Assembly (NCBI RefSeq): GCF_002117005.1
Contig: NZ_CP021023.1
Coordinates: forward strand, 992,001-1,056,000
Direction: 5' to 3'
Length of the DNA: 64,000 nt
From: Sedimentisphaera salicampi
GTDB lineage: Bacteria; Planctomycetota; Phycisphaerae; Sedimentisphaerales; Sedimentisphaeraceae
A program made the position numbers and the translations under genes. The notes beneath the pieces are model-generated. The model searched no databases and had not been told where the DNA came from. It saw nothing but the letters and a program-made list of their open reading frames with translations. Below, in pieces: positions 18,308-25,182 of the stretch; position 1 is the first letter of the stretch; the number at the start of each line of letters is the position of its first letter.

Positions 18308-18808
18308 CTAACAATGCTTTATCAGTTTGTCGTACAAATCTCTAAGCCCCTGGCTTACGACATCAGTCTGCCCGCATACTGCCATAAAATTCGTATCGCC
18401 GTCCCATCTGGGAACAATATGAATATGCACGTGCCCAGGCAGGCCTGCTCCCGCGCAGCGGCCGATATTTATCCCAACATTAAACCCATCCGGGCTTATT
18501 TCTTTTCGCAGCAGGGCCTGAGTTTTCTTAACGCCCTTAAACAAATCGAGCATCTCGTTATCGCCTAAATCTGCTATATCGCCAGTATGCCTGAGAGGGC
18601 ATATCATAATATGGCCGTTGTTATATGGGAATTTATTGAATACGGCCATCGAATGCTCTGTCCTAAAAAGAACAAAATTTTTCGCATCATTCTCCGGCTC
18701 GTTTGCATAACCGCAAAGAAAGCAGCCTTCTGAGCTGCCGGAAAGGCCTTGGATGTATTCCATTCTCCAAGGCGCCCAGAGGTTTTTCTTTTCAAATTCG
18801 CTTCTCAT
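18308..18808 (-). CDS. HIT-family nucleotide hydrolase/phosphorylase
   Basis: 166 residues. The histidine-triad motif GHVHIHIVPRWDGDTNF is near the C-terminus. The N-terminus LWAPWRMEYIQG together with the CFLC site resembles AP4A phosphorylase-like HIT proteins of bacteria, which process dinucleoside polyphosphates or AMP conjugates. The ATG overlaps the stop of the upstream lipoprotein gene by 4 nt (ATGA), indicating translational coupling. Confidence 0.88.
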   Translation of the reverse strand: MRSEFEKKNLWAPWRMEYIQGLSGSSEGCFLCGYANEPENDAKNFVLFRTEHSMAVFNKFPYNNGHIMICPLRHTGDIADLGDNEMLDLFKGVKKTQALLRKEISPDGFNVGINIGRCAGAGLPGHVHIHIVPRWDGDTNFMAVCGQTDVVSQGLRDLYDKLIKHC

Positions 18809-19788
18809 TCTGCCAGTTCAACTGTTATCTTCTGATGCACATCCAATTTCGGCACGCTGTCTCCAAGCGGAATCATAAAGCCCGCCTCCATAACCATATC
18901 ATACTCCTGCGTTTCGCTTATAAGAACGCCTTCGAGCTGGTCGTAAACTGTTTTACCCTCGCCTTCAAGGCTCAGGGGCTTATAGTTCCGCAGGAAGCCA
19001 AACATCCCTTTGGTTTGGAATGAGCCCTCATAGGGCTTTGGACGGGGCTCAATTGATGGCGTAAATTTCAGTTTGCCGTCTTCTGCCTCTTTGTATGTGC
19101 TTAGTTCATAGCTGCTTTTTATAATCATTCGGCTCTCATCTTCAGGCTGAATCTCGGGGGGAAGGCTGTATGTAACGATTCTTTCTGCAGGAATTCCCAC
19201 AGCAAATGGAACCATCAGCACAGATTCCCACTCCTGCCCGGGAGAGATTCCAAAAGACTTTTTATTAGCACTGGCCACTGCGTTCCAGAGTGTCCACTGA
19301 GAAGCAGCGAAATCAAGAATCATATCGGGATCTTTAATGCGGCGTTTTCCGCTTTCTTTTATTGCCTGCTTGCCAGCCTTGGCGAGGGCTTCCTGAAGGC
19401 CGGAATAGTCTTCAATCTCGCCTGCAGAGTTAATCTTGATTTTCCACTTCTCCCCTTCAAGAACCTCGAGCGGATCTGAGCTTCTTTTCTTTCCGGTAAA
19501 TGAGCTGCGCTGAACGCTTATATCCCTGCATTCTGCCTCAAGAACGGTGCTGCCAAGCTCATCAACCTCCACAGGTTTATAAGCAATCTGCATATTGAGC
19601 TTCTCAGATGCGTTCTGCTTTTTGCCGGATTTGCTGCCTTCAAGAGTTAGCGTAATATCACGCTGTGAAACAAAGTTGTACACCATATCCTGCTTGTCAA
19701 AACCGAGCGAGAGATAGGTTTTTTGGCTGCTGCATCCAGAAATAAGAACAGCAGCAGCAGCGGCTGATAAAAGTAAAGCTCTCTTCAA
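18805..19788 (-). CDS. DUF6263-like lipoprotein, paralogue 1
   Basis: 327 residues from a TTG at 19788 with GAGGAG 7 nt upstream; the in-frame TTG at 19803 lies upstream of that site and is rejected. The signal peptide ends in a clear lipobox, VLISGC, so the product is a lipoprotein. The mature part resembles DUF6263 proteins: WKIKINSAGEIEDYSGLQEAL and SPGQEWESVLMVPF, with regularly spaced beta strands. Function unknown. It is similar in plan to the neighbour at 19874-20791. Confidence 0.75.
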   Translation of the reverse strand: MKRALLLSAAAAAVLISGCSSQKTYLSLGFDKQDMVYNFVSQRDITLTLEGSKSGKKQNASEKLNMQIAYKPVEVDELGSTVLEAECRDISVQRSSFTGKKRSSDPLEVLEGEKWKIKINSAGEIEDYSGLQEALAKAGKQAIKESGKRRIKDPDMILDFAASQWTLWNAVASANKKSFGISPGQEWESVLMVPFAVGIPAERIVTYSLPPEIQPEDESRMIIKSSYELSTYKEAEDGKLKFTPSIEPRPKPYEGSFQTKGMFGFLRNYKPLSLEGEGKTVYDQLEGVLISETQEYDMVMEAGFMIPLGDSVPKLDVHQKITVELAE

Positions 19789-19822
19789 ATTAACACTCCT
19801 CAATAAAAATGTTTGCCATAAT

Positions 19823-19863
19823 CAAAAAACAAAATGCCCGCTGTAAGAGCTCAGCGGGCATTT
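19823..19863 (-). terminator. Rho-independent terminator after DUF6263-like paralogue 2
   Basis: A 12-bp stem, AAATGCCCGCTG/CAGCGGGCATTT, with an 8-nt loop, read on the minus strand, is followed by TTGTTTTTTG. It separates the two paralogous genes. Confidence 0.85.
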
Positions 19864-19873
19864 GAGTTTGCTT

Positions 19874-20791
19874 TTAGATCTTTTCAAATGAGTACTTATG
19901 AATGAACCTCATAGTAAGAACATCCGGCCCTTTTTTAGTATCGCCGCCTTTGGGCTGCTCCATTGCCACATGCTCGCTCACCAGAGATTCTGAAGACTTA
20001 ACCACCTCACCGGTTTCAGTATTATAAACCATACTGCCTGTGAAAGTGTCTTTTGTGTCAAAGATGTTTGCCATGAAGCCCATAGAGCCTGAGCCCACAT
20101 CAAGCCCTTCAATTTCTTTATTAGTCTGAGAGCCGGTCATTTCTATATGAGCGATGCCGTCCTGCATCTTTTCGACTTCATAAGTTTTTCTGAAGGCCTT
20201 GGAATCAAGAGCTCCCTTAGGGCTTGCCGAATATCTATCCCAGCTCTTGCCTTTTGCTACAGTCGTGCCGGGCTTTGGAATCCCTCTTATAGTATGCCTT
20301 TTGATGATGTAATCATCCTTGAAAATTGTTTTGGCTTCTCTGGTGCGGCATTTTTTCATTATGTCTTCTTTATCCACCACTTCAACCGTACCATCGGCAG
20401 CCATGGATATCTTGTAAGACTCGCCTATAATAGATGCAAGGGTCCCGCTTTCATCCTCTTTGCTGTTGAAATCTACATTCACCCCTTTGCTGTTCTTTGA
20501 GAAGAACACAAGCTCTTTTACAGTAATATCGAGGATTGCAGTCCCGTCCGGCTTGAGTGAATCAACCTTCTGGTCGAACACCATCTCAACCCTGCCGACA
20601 TTTCTGTCCAGCTTGCTTTTCTCTTTCGAGGGCTGTTCGAAGCTCACTTCCTTAGTAGTTTCCTGAGAAACCTTGAATGTATCAACCTCGCCGGGCTGAT
20701 AATTCAAAGCAAATTCTGCTGTCTGGCAGCCTGTCAGAAGGGCTGCGGCACAAACAAACAACGCTGTAAAAACAATACGAAAAGATCTCAT
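19874..20791 (-). CDS. DUF6263-like lipoprotein, paralogue 2
   Basis: 305 residues from the ATG at 20791, with GGAG 7 nt upstream. The lipobox is ALLTGC. The body has the same plan as the neighbour at 18805: a beta-rich N-terminus beginning ALNYQPGEVDTFKVSQETTK, a YKISMAADGTVEVVDKEDIM segment matching the WKIKINSAGEIED region, and a KGKSWDRYSASPKGAL segment matching the PGQEWES region. No enzymatic motif is visible. The two genes are tandem paralogues separated by a terminator, so they are probably regulated differently. Confidence 0.75.
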   Translation of the reverse strand: MRSFRIVFTALFVCAAALLTGCQTAEFALNYQPGEVDTFKVSQETTKEVSFEQPSKEKSKLDRNVGRVEMVFDQKVDSLKPDGTAILDITVKELVFFSKNSKGVNVDFNSKEDESGTLASIIGESYKISMAADGTVEVVDKEDIMKKCRTREAKTIFKDDYIIKRHTIRGIPKPGTTVAKGKSWDRYSASPKGALDSKAFRKTYEVEKMQDGIAHIEMTGSQTNKEIEGLDVGSGSMGFMANIFDTKDTFTGSMVYNTETGEVVKSSESLVSEHVAMEQPKGGDTKKGPDVLTMRFIHKYSFEKI

Positions 20792-20847
20792 TTTAGTCTC
20801 CAATAAGCGTAACATTAATGCTGATTAAACTGCGTTAGCATAAAAAT

Positions 20848-20946: not shown

Positions 20947-23301
20947 TCAAACATCCTGCTCGGTACGTTTGATAATCTCATCCTGCAATTCTTTTCCTAA
21001 AACAATGAAATAATCGCTGTATCCGGCCACTCTCACAATCAGATCTTTATGCTTTTCTGGATTCTGCTGGGCATCAAGAAGCGTTTCTTTATCCACAACA
21101 TTAAACTGAATATGATGCCCGCCAAGCTTAAAATATGACCTGATAAGGTCTGCAAGGGCTTTTACCCCTTTGTCCTTCATCAGCTCGGGACTGAACTTCA
21201 TATTAAGAAGAGTGCCGCCGGTGAGAGAGTGGTCAAAACAGGATGCGCTCTTGATAACACCCGTAGGGCCGACCTGATCAGCCCCCTGCGTTGGCGAGAT
21301 TCCGTCTGAGAGCGGCTCTCCTGCCTTTCGACCTGAGGGAAGAGCCCCCGTTACCGTGCCGAAATAAATATGCGAGGTAGTGGGCAGAAGGTTCACACGA
21401 TAGAAGCCGCCCTTTGTGTTTGGTTTGCCGTTTAATGCATCGTAATACATTTGGAACACATTTTTGGCAATCTCGTCGGCATAATTGTCGTCGTTGCCGT
21501 ATTTAGGGGTCTTGTTCAAGAGCTGCTGGCGGAGATATTCATTATCTTCGAAGTTATTCTTGAGTGCCTCAGCAAGCTCTTTCATAGATATATTCTTCTC
21601 ATCGAAAACATTGTACTTCAGCCCTGCAAACGCATCAGCCGCTGAACCAAGACCAACGCCTTGAATGTAAGTGGGGTTGTATCTCGGTCCGCCGTTGTGG
21701 TAATCAAGTCCTCTATTTATACAGTCGTCAACAAGCAGAGACATAAACGGAACTGGCATACGCTCGGCATAAAGTCTTTCTATCTCGCTGTTGAGTGATA
21801 TCTTCAAATCTATGAAGTAGTTCAGCTGCCGCTTATACTGCTCGAGAAAATCATCAAAGCTTTCAATCTCTTCTGCTGGCTTTGTTTTCAGCCCAACCTG
21901 CCTGCCTGTAAGCGGGTCAACGCCTGCATTTATGGTGATCTCTAAAATCTTGGGCATATTGCAGTAGCCGGTGAGGATGCAGCTTTCCTTTCCGAAAGCG
22001 CTTACTGTAACGCAGCCGCTCGGGCCTCCGTTTCTTGCATCTTCAAGAGACTTACCTGCATTCAGCATTTCTTTTATTATCACATCAGTATTAAAAACGC
22101 TCGGCTGGCCGAACCCTTCACAAATCACCTTGCAGGCTCTTTCGAGGAATTTATCAGGATTCTTCTCGCTCAGCTGAATGCAGGAGCTTGGCTGAGTTAG
22201 ACGCATCTCTTCGACTACATCCATAATCATATATGAGAGTTCATTAACGGCGTCTGAGCCGTCAGCGGGAAGAACGCCGCCAACATTAATGAGAGAAAAA
22301 TCTGTATATGTTCCGCTCTGCTCTTCTGTAATACCAACTTTGGGCGGAGCGGGATGGTTGTTAAATTTTATCCAGAAGCATTCCAGAAGCTCTACGGCCT
22401 GCTCTCTGGTCAGCCGGCCGCTTTGAATCTCTTTCTCATAGAAAGGCATAAGGTTCTGATCTATTCTGCCCGGGTTGTATGAATCCCATGGGTTTGTCTC
22501 GATTATTACGCCCAGATGAATGAACCAGTACATCTGCAGGGCTTCGCGGAATGTATCGGGCTTTGAGGCAGGGACTTTCCTGCAAATCCTTTCAATCTCG
22601 AGCAGCTGCTCTTTCTTCTCACTGTTGCTTTCATTTTTTGCAAGCTCGGCGGCGAGGTCTGCATATCTTCCTGCAAACATAATCAGGGCATCTGCCGCTA
22701 TAGCCATAGCTTCAAGCTGCTGATGCTTCTCCTTTGCCTCGCTGTCAGACTCAATCTCGTAAACGCTCTCCCTTATCTCCTCCTTGAAATCATTGAGGCC
22801 TCGGTTGTATATTTTGTCATCGAGAATGGCATGCCCCGGGCTTCTCTGCTCCATAAACTCAGTGAAAACACCCGCATCGAAGGCCTTCATCCAATCTTCA
22901 CCTGCTCGTTCGAAGACTTCCTCCCGCATAGTTTTTCCCTGCCAGTAGGGTATGATGCGATCTTTGTAAACCTTCTTCACATCATCAGAAACTGCATACT
23001 GTGTTTTTTCCCGGGTGCTCATAATCTCTAAATCTTCAATGCTGTGGCAGCATATCTCGGGATACGTAGAAACGGCTTTCGGCCCTGAGCCCCGCTCGCC
23101 GACTATCATCTCTCCTTCGGATATATGTATGCTCTTATTGGCCAGAATATATTCAAACATCCTCGCTCGGGCGATTGGTGCAGAAAGCCTTTCATCAAGC
23201 TCTTTTATGTAAAAGTCTGTTACAAGCTCTGCACGTTCGGGACAGATAAAGGGCTTCGTGTTTATGCTTTCTTCCCTTAGTTTCCTCACTCTCTGATTCA
23301 T
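20947..23301 (-). CDS. HypD-like glycyl radical enzyme with GCVT active-site motif
   Basis: 784 residues, the usual length. The C-terminal glycyl-radical motif is VRVAGYSDYF with Gly760. The cysteine loop is GGPSGCVTVSAFGKES with Cys430. Along its length it most resembles trans-4-hydroxyproline dehydratase (HypD): SPGHAILDDKIYNRG (His157), CILTGYCNMPKILE, GLDYHNGGPRYNPTYIQG, TPKYGNDDNYADEIA, LLPTTSHIYFG, SGRKAGEPLSDGISPTQGAD, LGGHHIQFNVV. The residue two after the catalytic Cys is Thr432, where dehydratases and CutC carry a Glu base, so the substrate may differ. No activating radical-SAM enzyme is adjacent. AAGGACAG precedes the ATG. Anaerobic use is expected. Confidence 0.85.
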   Translation of the reverse strand: MNQRVRKLREESINTKPFICPERAELVTDFYIKELDERLSAPIARARMFEYILANKSIHISEGEMIVGERGSGPKAVSTYPEICCHSIEDLEIMSTREKTQYAVSDDVKKVYKDRIIPYWQGKTMREEVFERAGEDWMKAFDAGVFTEFMEQRSPGHAILDDKIYNRGLNDFKEEIRESVYEIESDSEAKEKHQQLEAMAIAADALIMFAGRYADLAAELAKNESNSEKKEQLLEIERICRKVPASKPDTFREALQMYWFIHLGVIIETNPWDSYNPGRIDQNLMPFYEKEIQSGRLTREQAVELLECFWIKFNNHPAPPKVGITEEQSGTYTDFSLINVGGVLPADGSDAVNELSYMIMDVVEEMRLTQPSSCIQLSEKNPDKFLERACKVICEGFGQPSVFNTDVIIKEMLNAGKSLEDARNGGPSGCVTVSAFGKESCILTGYCNMPKILEITINAGVDPLTGRQVGLKTKPAEEIESFDDFLEQYKRQLNYFIDLKISLNSEIERLYAERMPVPFMSLLVDDCINRGLDYHNGGPRYNPTYIQGVGLGSAADAFAGLKYNVFDEKNISMKELAEALKNNFEDNEYLRQQLLNKTPKYGNDDNYADEIAKNVFQMYYDALNGKPNTKGGFYRVNLLPTTSHIYFGTVTGALPSGRKAGEPLSDGISPTQGADQVGPTGVIKSASCFDHSLTGGTLLNMKFSPELMKDKGVKALADLIRSYFKLGGHHIQFNVVDKETLLDAQQNPEKHKDLIVRVAGYSDYFIVLGKELQDEIIKRTEQDV

Positions 23302-23442
23302 TTTGCTGTCCTTAAAGTTTTCCTGAAAATCAAGTGTTAAAAATTGTATTGTTAAACATACCCTGATTATAAAACAAAAGTTTTAAATTTCAGCTTTTGA
23401 AATGGAAAATTAAACAAAAATTTAAAATTTCTTTCTGCTCGA

Positions 23443-25182
23443 TTATGATTCTCTGCTGATAAGATAAATCGCCTCTCTTCCGAAAAGGTTAGGCAGAAAA
23501 TTTACAATCCCCGTTCCTGCTGTTCTAGGCACGATTCTCTGCTCTATGCGAATATTGATGCTTCGGCAGAGCTTTTCAAAATCCTTCATTGAGAAGAAAT
23601 GAACATTTGGGCTGTCATACCAGCTGTACGGCAGAGAGCTTGTAGTAGGGGCTCTTCCGGCAAAAAAGAGCTGCGTCCGGCAGCTGATGTGAGCGAAATT
23701 CGGGAAAGTAACTACGGCCTTTCTCCCAATCCGTACAATCTCCTTGAGCAGTTCTTTTGGCCGTTTGGTTGTCTGAAGGGTTTTCGAGAGCACTACATAA
23801 TCAAACTGGCCGTCAGCGAAAGATTCCAGCGAATCTTCAATATCCGCCCAAACAGCAGGCACCCCCTTCTTAAGGCACGAGCCTATTGATTCAGTATCGA
23901 TATCGATGCCCAAAACATCGCATTTGTTTACATCTCTGAGCCTTGCGAGCAGCTCTCCCTCGCCGCAGCCGAGATCTAAAACATCCCCGCTTTCAACAAA
24001 CCGATTCTGGATAATATCATAATCAGACCGGCCCGGCTCGCTGCTTGGTGTGTAAGCAAAGGAATCTGCCATTTTACGAGATGTAGCCCAGACAAAATTT
24101 TCTATGTAAGGCCCGATAACATCCGTTTCGATCAGGAACGCATCATGGCCGTGATGAGAGTTGATGTTGGCGTATGAAACATCCTTTTCGTTTGATACAA
24201 GGGCATCAACGAGTTCCTGCGAGTGTTTTGGCGGAAAGAGCCAGTCGCTCGAATAGCTCACCACAAAGAACCTGGCCTTAACCGAAGCAAAGGCCTTCTC
24301 GAGAGAGCCGAATTCCTTCTCAAGGTCGAAATAATCCATAGCCCTTGTGATGTAGAGGTAGGAATTTGCATCGAATCGCTCAACAAACCTTCTTCCCTGA
24401 TGGTCGAGGTATGTCTCCACTGAGAATTCAGGGTCGAAATCATAGCTGTAATCATCGGAGTTTCTAAGCGCACGGCCAAACTTCCGCCTCATTCCTTCTT
24501 CGGAAAGGTAGGTGATATGTCCAATCATACGGGCTATCCCAAGCCCCCTATCGGGGCCTTTATCTTCGGGATACTGCCCGCTGTTGAATTGTTTATCGGC
24601 CAGAATCGCATTACGCCCTACCGCATCAAATGCAATAGCCTGGGCTCCTAGATGGGAGGTAGTGGCGATAAGAACAACGCATTTCACCTTCTCGGGATAA
24701 TCTATAGCTATTCTCATTGCGTGCATTCCGCCCATAGACCCGCCTATCACACACAGAAGCTTTTCAATTCCGAGCTTATCAACAAACATCTTATGAACCC
24801 GCGCCATATCTTTTATGGTAAAGAGCGGGAAATCAAGCCCGTACTTGAGCCCAGTATCCGGGTTTATCGAGGATGGCCCAGTTGTCCCTGAGCAGCCGCC
24901 GAGAAAATTCGAGCATATAACAAAGTATTTATCTGTATCAATATACTTGCCCGGACCGATCATATCATCCCACCAGCCGGGTTTGCTGTCTTCGCTGGTG
25001 CTGTATCCGGCCACGTGCGCATCACCTGTAAGCGCATGGCAGATATAAACAGCATTTGAGCGGTCTTGGTTCAGCTCGCCGTAGGTTTCGTAGGCAACTT
25101 CAACTTCTTTAAGTACGCCGCCCGATTCAAGCTCGAAAACCTCGCCTTCTTCAAGAATGCTCAGTTTCTTCGTTTCCACCAC
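23443..25182 (-). CDS. metX: Homoserine O-acetyltransferase fused to MetW
   Basis: 579 residues from a GTG. Residues 1 to about 375 are MetX, an alpha/beta-hydrolase: VYICHALTGDAHVAGY, the nucleophile elbow VIGGSMGGMHAMRIAI, SSDWLFPP (Asp) and HHGHDAFL (His). Residues about 385-579 are a MetW-like methyltransferase-fold domain: YDIIQNRFVESGDVLDLGCGEGELLARL, DFYVVLSKTLQ-type sequence (FDYVVLSKTLQTTKRP), FPNFAHISCRTQLFFAGRAP and LPYSWYDSPNVHFFS, all diagnostic of MetW. No stop or frameshift separates the halves. In proteobacteria metX and metW are adjacent genes and MetW associates with MetX. The fusion supplies O-acetylhomoserine to MetY at 4.4-5.7 kb. Acyl specificity (acetyl versus succinyl) is not proven by sequence. 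Confidence 0.92.
   Translation of the reverse strand: MVETKKLSILEEGEVFELESGGVLKEVEVAYETYGELNQDRSNAVYICHALTGDAHVAGYSTSEDSKPGWWDDMIGPGKYIDTDKYFVICSNFLGGCSGTTGPSSINPDTGLKYGLDFPLFTIKDMARVHKMFVDKLGIEKLLCVIGGSMGGMHAMRIAIDYPEKVKCVVLIATTSHLGAQAIAFDAVGRNAILADKQFNSGQYPEDKGPDRGLGIARMIGHITYLSEEGMRRKFGRALRNSDDYSYDFDPEFSVETYLDHQGRRFVERFDANSYLYITRAMDYFDLEKEFGSLEKAFASVKARFFVVSYSSDWLFPPKHSQELVDALVSNEKDVSYANINSHHGHDAFLIETDVIGPYIENFVWATSRKMADSFAYTPSSEPGRSDYDIIQNRFVESGDVLDLGCGEGELLARLRDVNKCDVLGIDIDTESIGSCLKKGVPAVWADIEDSLESFADGQFDYVVLSKTLQTTKRPKELLKEIVRIGRKAVVTFPNFAHISCRTQLFFAGRAPTTSSLPYSWYDSPNVHFFSMKDFEKLCRSINIRIEQRIVPRTAGTGIVNFLPNLFGREAIYLISRES

Follow-up and report, generated by a model that had tools for sequence, protein, structure and literature searches.

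A HypD-like glycyl radical enzyme of Sedimentisphaera salicampi with threonine in place of the CXE glutamate, predicted to act in hydroxyproline breakdown

We analysed a 64,000-nucleotide stretch of the Sedimentisphaera salicampi genome (the window; C1:992001-1056000 of a genome that forms one contig of 3,192,293 bases). It encodes a glycyl radical enzyme (GRE) that resembles HypD, the trans-4-hydroxyproline (Hyp) dehydratase of C. difficile. We compared 14 active-site positions of HypD in this enzyme, and the results showed that Glu436, the glutamate of the CXE motif, alone differs, its place being taken by Thr432. We predict that the enzyme very probably breaks down hydroxyproline, and that the glutamate thought essential in HypD is probably replaceable in the clade of threonine and glutamate enzymes to which the window enzyme belongs. 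The gene and the elements preceding it are the following.

20947..23301, minus strand: open reading frame of the HypD-like GRE, 784 amino acids, ATG at 23301 and stop at 20947, assigned by Pfam, NCBIfam and structural match.
23309..23313, minus strand: AAGGA, a possible ribosome-binding site 7 nt before the ATG, judged by eye.
23366..23393, minus strand: promoter-like CTGAAA-16-TATAAT 5' of the GRE gene, a weak candidate, with 7 such sites in the 64-kb stretch against 4.3 expected by chance.

The Pfam domains of the protein were PFL-like (residues 1-648) and Gly_radical (665-766), and the NCBIfam HypD equivalog NF043068 scored it at 1184.1 bits, above the cut-off of 1100. By sequence, the closest solved structure was C. 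difficile HypD 6vxc with 963.7 bits, the next reaching 550.6. Structure models were made for the window enzyme and for a glutamate enzyme of the same clade (L012). The AlphaFold2 model of the window enzyme had a mean pLDDT of 91.5; 6vxc ranked first in a Foldseek search with this model and was the top match in VIA-align (Z 58.5, rmsd 1.3, 781 residues, 51% identity). The score above the equivalog cut-off and 6vxc as the best structure bear out the likeness to HypD that a preliminary description had proposed. The protein thus shares with C. difficile HypD (6vxc/6vxe; NF043068) its length, fold, Cys and Gly loops and all checked site residues but one; it differs in that threonine and in 12 clade-fixed substitutions, most of them near the site. 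It is classed here as HypD-like, working like HypD, and strict HypD membership is withheld because Thr432 replaces the CXE glutamate, which is essential in C. difficile HypD.

Directly upstream of the GRE gene, the open reading frame at 23443-25182 on the minus strand encodes a MetX-MetW fusion, whose MetX (homoserine O-acetyltransferase) part scored 513.8 bits (cut-off 331) and whose MetW part scored 213.8 bits (cut-off 189.5). The two genes after the GRE gene (18805-20815, minus strand) look lipoprotein-like by eye, one without a Pfam match at the limit used and the other with a weak match to DUF6263, and a second genome of the genus shows the same order.

The active-site residues of the window enzyme, with their HypD equivalents, lie as follows.

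21979..22023, minus strand: Cys loop, residues 427-441, which holds Cys430, Thr432 and three of 12 clade-marking residues (P427, S434, C441).
22012..22014, minus strand: Cys430, the thiyl-radical cysteine, equivalent to Cys434 of C. difficile HypD (alignment, codon check).
22006..22008, minus strand: Thr432, codon ACA, in place of Glu436 (alignment to HypD, codon check).
22831..22833, minus strand: His157, equivalent to His160 of HypD, kept in 38 of 38 threonine rows.
22483..22485, minus strand: Asp273, equivalent to Asp278, the proposed acid/base in HypD (PMC7077986), kept in 38 of 38 threonine rows.
22300..22302, minus strand: Asp334, equivalent to Asp339 of HypD (alignment).
22315..22317, minus strand: Ser329, equivalent to Ser334, a Hyp carboxylate binder in HypD (alignment).
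21964..21966, minus strand: Tyr446, equivalent to Tyr450, a Hyp carboxylate binder in HypD (alignment).
21379..21381, minus strand: Thr641, taken as the Thr645 equivalent, the first of a TT pair of which either may be the partner (alignment).
21022..21024, minus strand: Gly760, the glycyl radical site, equivalent to Gly765 of HypD (alignment).

The Cys loop of the window enzyme reads GGPSGCVTVSAFGKESC, with a single cysteine where pyruvate formate-lyase has an adjacent pair. Codon reading and alignment together uphold the original observation that threonine stands for glutamate at Cys+2 with His157 and Gly760 (in RVAGYS) kept. The alignment to 6vxc, whose loop reads SGCVE, had no gap near the loop; therefore the glutamate has not moved, and a glutamate at a shifted position, which had been named as a ground for refutation, is excluded. 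Glu439 of a nearby GKE was considered as a shifted catalytic residue and ruled out, as ordinary HypDs have the GKE glutamate too. All HypD residues specific to Hyp (Asp278, Asp339, Ser334, Tyr450, Thr645, Phe340 and His160) were found in the window enzyme. Thirteen site residues, in HypD numbering F152, R156, H160, W277, D278, K326, S334, D339, F340, C434, Y450, T645 and G765, were the same in all 38 threonine rows, counting the rows with a letter (one threonine row was gapped at T645 and two at G765).

HypD stands apart from other GRE eliminases in what its CXE glutamate does (PMC7077986). In those other enzymes the presumed role is that of a base that generates a ketyl radical, whereas in HypD Glu436 and His160 are proposed to position the leaving hydroxyl, and the proposed acid/base is Asp278, which would take a proton from the amine and give one to the departing hydroxyl (PMC7077986). 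Because the glutamate of HypD is proposed only to position the hydroxyl, its replacement is easier to imagine there than in other GREs. The swap is still not trivial, since E436Q of C. difficile HypD is inactive: activity was undetectable and radical yields were lowered in E436Q, H160Q, D278N and D339N alike (PMC7077986, Table 2). The preliminary description had inferred a different mechanism from "loss of the base". A changed positioning of the hydroxyl is plausible, but that wording misplaces the glutamate, the proposed acid/base being Asp278 (PMC7077986).

Across 33 GRE rows that were neither HypD nor PFL, the residue at Cys+2 was glutamate in 29, aspartate in two, glutamine in one and glycine in one, with threonine in none. 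Other natural departures from CXE occur among GREs of the window's class, with GCLD in L206 and L207 and GCAQ in L221, and a GRE of the same order (L018 230-2710, G019) has the Cys loop GCTG, with neither glutamate nor threonine at Cys+2. The arylacetate decarboxylase of Olsenella scatoligenes (7e7l) likewise has no glutamate there (GCVL in the alignment); it catalyses another reaction, by its title, and is 31% identical to the window enzyme.

HypD-like sequences scoring above 600 bits were collected from a 40-genome search, a GTDB contig scan (of 90 relatives, 80 loci were retained) and a 397-genome search of the class, giving 128 unique sequences with that of the window included. Position 432 was glutamate in 90 of them, threonine in 38 and nothing else. 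Across the 38, the threonine codon was ACA in 15, ACG in 14, ACC in eight and ACT in one, and a second genome of the same genus has a GRE 92% identical to that of the window, also with threonine. Thr432 is therefore not due to chance or a sequencing slip. Threonine types were found in Planctomycetota of the window's class, Aminicenantes, an Acidobacteria MAG, two Bathyarchaeota MAGs, a WOR-3 MAG and one unnamed bacterium; these taxa come from record titles and kinship, and as the sequences are mostly metagenome-assembled, single assignments may be wrong. The literature searched (open-licence, titles and abstract starts) yielded no assayed GCVT enzyme, an absence of little weight.

Within the class, 63 of the 397 genomes had a HypD-like match of at least 766 bits (26 threonine, 12 clade glutamate and 25 other glutamate). 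None of the 63 carried threonine and glutamate types together, and one genome held two threonine copies. The lack of genomes with both types is what one would expect if one type had replaced the other, and not of a division of labour. Two irregular HypD-like loci were seen in the wider set. The Acidobacteria threonine-type genome has short HypD-like pieces with stop codons (G401:C12:3969-4353; L199, L200), perhaps the remains of a second copy, and a glutamate-type HypD-like gene (L233, G088:C137:589-2936) lies in two overlapping pieces, the first with an in-frame TGA, which may be a broken gene or an assembly error.

We built the main tree from 123 rows, with column 432 left out and five of the 128 sequences dropped as too short. 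All threonine sequences fell within one 50-member clade (38 threonine, 12 glutamate; SH-aLRT 100), in which position 432 is threonine or glutamate only. The threonine/glutamate label required six changes on this tree, and at least four of the changes are forced by well-supported branches; L143 (threonine) and L146 (glutamate), for example, are sisters with a support of 93. An earlier 87-row tree required three changes among the threonine and glutamate rows. In a 57-row test, all 37 threonine rows as one group were rejected (p-AU 1.4e-74), as were the 12 clade glutamate rows as one group (p-AU 3.3e-52), and the whole clade formed one side of a branch with a support of 100. These p-AU values are indicative, because the trees are quick ones (LG+G4) and the groups tested were defined with an earlier tree already in view. 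On the question whether GCVT sequences form their own clade, the results showed that all lie in one clade, but glutamate members are nested among them, and hence they have no clade of their own.

By our reading of the tree, the shortest history places threonine at the base of the clade, with later returns to glutamate and at least one second gain of threonine (L143). In the window genus, threonine may have been kept or regained, at equal cost in the 123-row tree. Gene conversion or transfer was considered as the source of the switches and set aside, since whole-gene trees do not group by threonine/glutamate state and the clade markers flanking position 432 on its two sides persist in the 12 clade glutamate members (P427 in 12, S434 in 11); a very short conversion tract is conceivable.

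We next compared the genes around the GRE in related loci. An activase was present within the fetched stretch in 30 of 38 threonine, 12 of 12 clade glutamate and 70 of 78 other glutamate loci. It lay directly upstream of the GRE in 30 of the 38 threonine loci; of the eight threonine loci without it, three end at a contig end, two belong to the genus of the window and three lack an activase in the vicinity (L159, L168, L176). An operon in the window's class runs activase, GRE, M3/ACE-like peptidase, SSF sodium symporter and Xaa-Pro aminopeptidase-like gene. Its GRE slot, in complete or partial form, was occupied by a threonine type in seven loci and by an outside-clade glutamate type in ten, in one of which (L190) the peptidase genes come first. 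The operon neighbours of the two types were 50-70% identical, and the peptidase, symporter, aminopeptidase and racemase-family neighbours score below NCBIfam cut-offs. In the operon loci L128, L129, L154, L155, L157, L177, L180-L182 and L184 the arrangement is apparently a prolyl-peptide degradation unit. Of the loci whose downstream sequence extends 4.5 kb or more, a peptidase came after the GRE in 8 of 21 threonine, 0 of 10 clade glutamate and 7 of 51 other glutamate loci, so the gene context of threonine and clade glutamate members is not identical (Fisher p 0.03 for these two, relatedness uncorrected).

In Aminicenantes, the locus L029 carries a GntR gene, the activase, the GRE, an Xaa-Pro aminopeptidase-like gene, members of the proline-racemase and ornithine-cyclodeaminase families and an EamA transporter, and the gene order of L034 resembles it up to the contig end. 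The L029 activase scored 410 bits, under the HypD-activase cut-off of 425. In the racemase-family proteins of both loci the first catalytic motif has Cys and the second has Thr, which is the pattern of trans-3-hydroxyproline dehydratase according to an excerpt of PMC4113996, and their best NCBIfam model was trans-3-hydroxyproline dehydratase, below its cut-off (401 and 412 of 540). Judged from these motifs, the gene adjoining the two threonine types is a probable trans-3-hydroxyproline dehydratase. The threonine types L029 and L034 would thus keep the company expected of a collagen hydroxyproline pathway, and the gene neighbours of threonine types suggest that prolyl peptides, for instance from collagen, are used.

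On this evidence the window enzyme is likely a trans-4-Hyp dehydratase in which threonine takes the hydroxyl-positioning role. What speaks most for unchanged function is that the first shell is kept, that threonine and glutamate were exchanged repeatedly as two states, and that the types share an operon in relatives. The different substrate suggested in the preliminary description is not favoured, as the 13 other site residues are kept, threonine and glutamate interconvert and both types occupy the same operon slot. Whether second-shell changes at the base of the clade made the glutamate dispensable once, giving a threonine/glutamate switch that has since flipped repeatedly while the enzymes stayed in the hydroxyproline pathway, is in our judgement an evenly balanced matter.

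The strongest point against unchanged function is that clade-fixed changes cluster near the site. Defined as at least 90% inside the clade and at most 10% outside, the clade markers numbered 12: F141, A158, I159, E326, E327, Q328, L337, C374, P427, S434, C441 and W449. Nine of them are no more than four residues away from a residue of the active site, compared with 88 of all 784 columns (binomial p 4.5e-7; distances are along the chain, not in space, and columns are not independent). Common to threonine and glutamate members, the markers came with the clade and not with threonine. Column 432 was the sole compared column that split threonine from glutamate fully within the clade, the next best reaching 0.83. 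No compensating acidic residue was tied to threonine; the acidic E326 and E327, new to nearly the whole clade, occur in threonine and glutamate members alike. On the ordinary, outside-clade background, threonine was found in 0 of 78 rows and 0 of 10 further rows.

This crowding of substitutions would fit an alternative in which the whole clade, threonine and glutamate members together, acts on another hydroxylated proline (a stereoisomer, or an N-methylated or larger Hyp derivative), threonine enlarging the pocket or removing charge beside the leaving group. Shifts of substrate among hydroxyprolines are known for GREs by entry titles, in the N-methyl-cis-4-hydroxyproline dehydratases 8id1 and 8iof and in HplG (7vua), a hydroxyproline C-N lyase. 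The HypD contact residues for the carboxylate, amine and ring of Hyp are nevertheless unchanged, ordinary HypDs occupy the same operon slot, and 8iof keeps GCVE. These enzymes are also distant, 8id1 and 8iof being 33-34% identical to the window protein and HplG 31% (414.8 bits against 963.7 for 6vxc). We regard this alternative as rather unlikely.

The threonine types could instead bind Hyp and give another outcome, such as C-N cleavage or radical epimerisation without dehydration, the departure of the hydroxyl being unassisted. The loss of detectable dehydration in E436Q (PMC7077986) is in keeping with this, as is HplG, which has the GRE fold and acts on a hydroxyproline according to its entry title and an excerpt of PMC11528403, cleaving the C-N bond. 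If different products fed one pathway, it would be difficult to explain why threonine and glutamate interconvert repeatedly in genes that share the activase neighbour and the first shell; such an outcome appears improbable.

A search of the S. salicampi genome with the window GRE returned only itself and a pyruvate formate-lyase-like gene with a CC loop (C1:1603848-1605353; L002). Outside the window, some 30 kb from the GRE gene, lies a GRE activase with an iron-sulfur insert (C1:981236-982189). Its best named equivalog was the HypD activase (313.6 bits, below the cut-off of 425); it was 43-55% identical to activases of related loci among the 58 matches listed, and its best match among the fetched loci was an activase adjoining a clade GRE (46.8% identity). 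The prolyl-peptide operon was not found in this genome, nor was any proline-racemase-family gene, and a search for an Xaa-Pro peptidase gave only a weak match of 47.8 bits. ProC and ProA are both present, and ProC is no evidence of Hyp use, because ProA is there too. Since both are present, the proline-racemase family is absent and the sole match to the P5C dehydrogenase model is far under the cut-off (56.1 of 659.65), P5C in this organism would most simply go to proline. That the threonine types are impaired or decaying HypDs is highly improbable: the inactivity of E436Q (PMC7077986), the window genus without the operon and the distant activase of the window genome agree with decay, but threonine is fixed in 38 sequences over several phyla with varying codons, the glycyl and Cys loops are intact, and an activase stands directly upstream in most threonine loci.

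For the trans-4-Hyp dehydratase with threonine in the positioning role, we infer the following course. The distant radical-SAM activase, its putative partner, would generate the radical at Gly760. The radical would pass to Cys430, which would abstract hydrogen from C5 of Hyp. Asp273 would deprotonate the Hyp amine and protonate the leaving 4-hydroxyl, and Thr432 with His157, possibly helped by a water where the smaller side chain leaves room, would hold this hydroxyl. The second-shell substitutions represented by the 12 markers, fixed at the base of the clade, may have been permissive, making threonine and glutamate exchangeable.

Automatic annotation, in which the HypD cut-off is passed, hides a change at a residue reported to be essential, and this concerns sediment Planctomycetota, Aminicenantes, Bathyarchaeota and other lineages. 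Natural enzymes without the CXE glutamate but with the rest of the site kept make the positioning proposal directly testable, and close threonine/glutamate pairs are ready-made comparisons. If true, the reading of a threonine/glutamate switch within the hydroxyproline pathway would show, by a natural example, that the glutamate of HypD serves solely to position the leaving hydroxyl, the true acid/base being Asp278.
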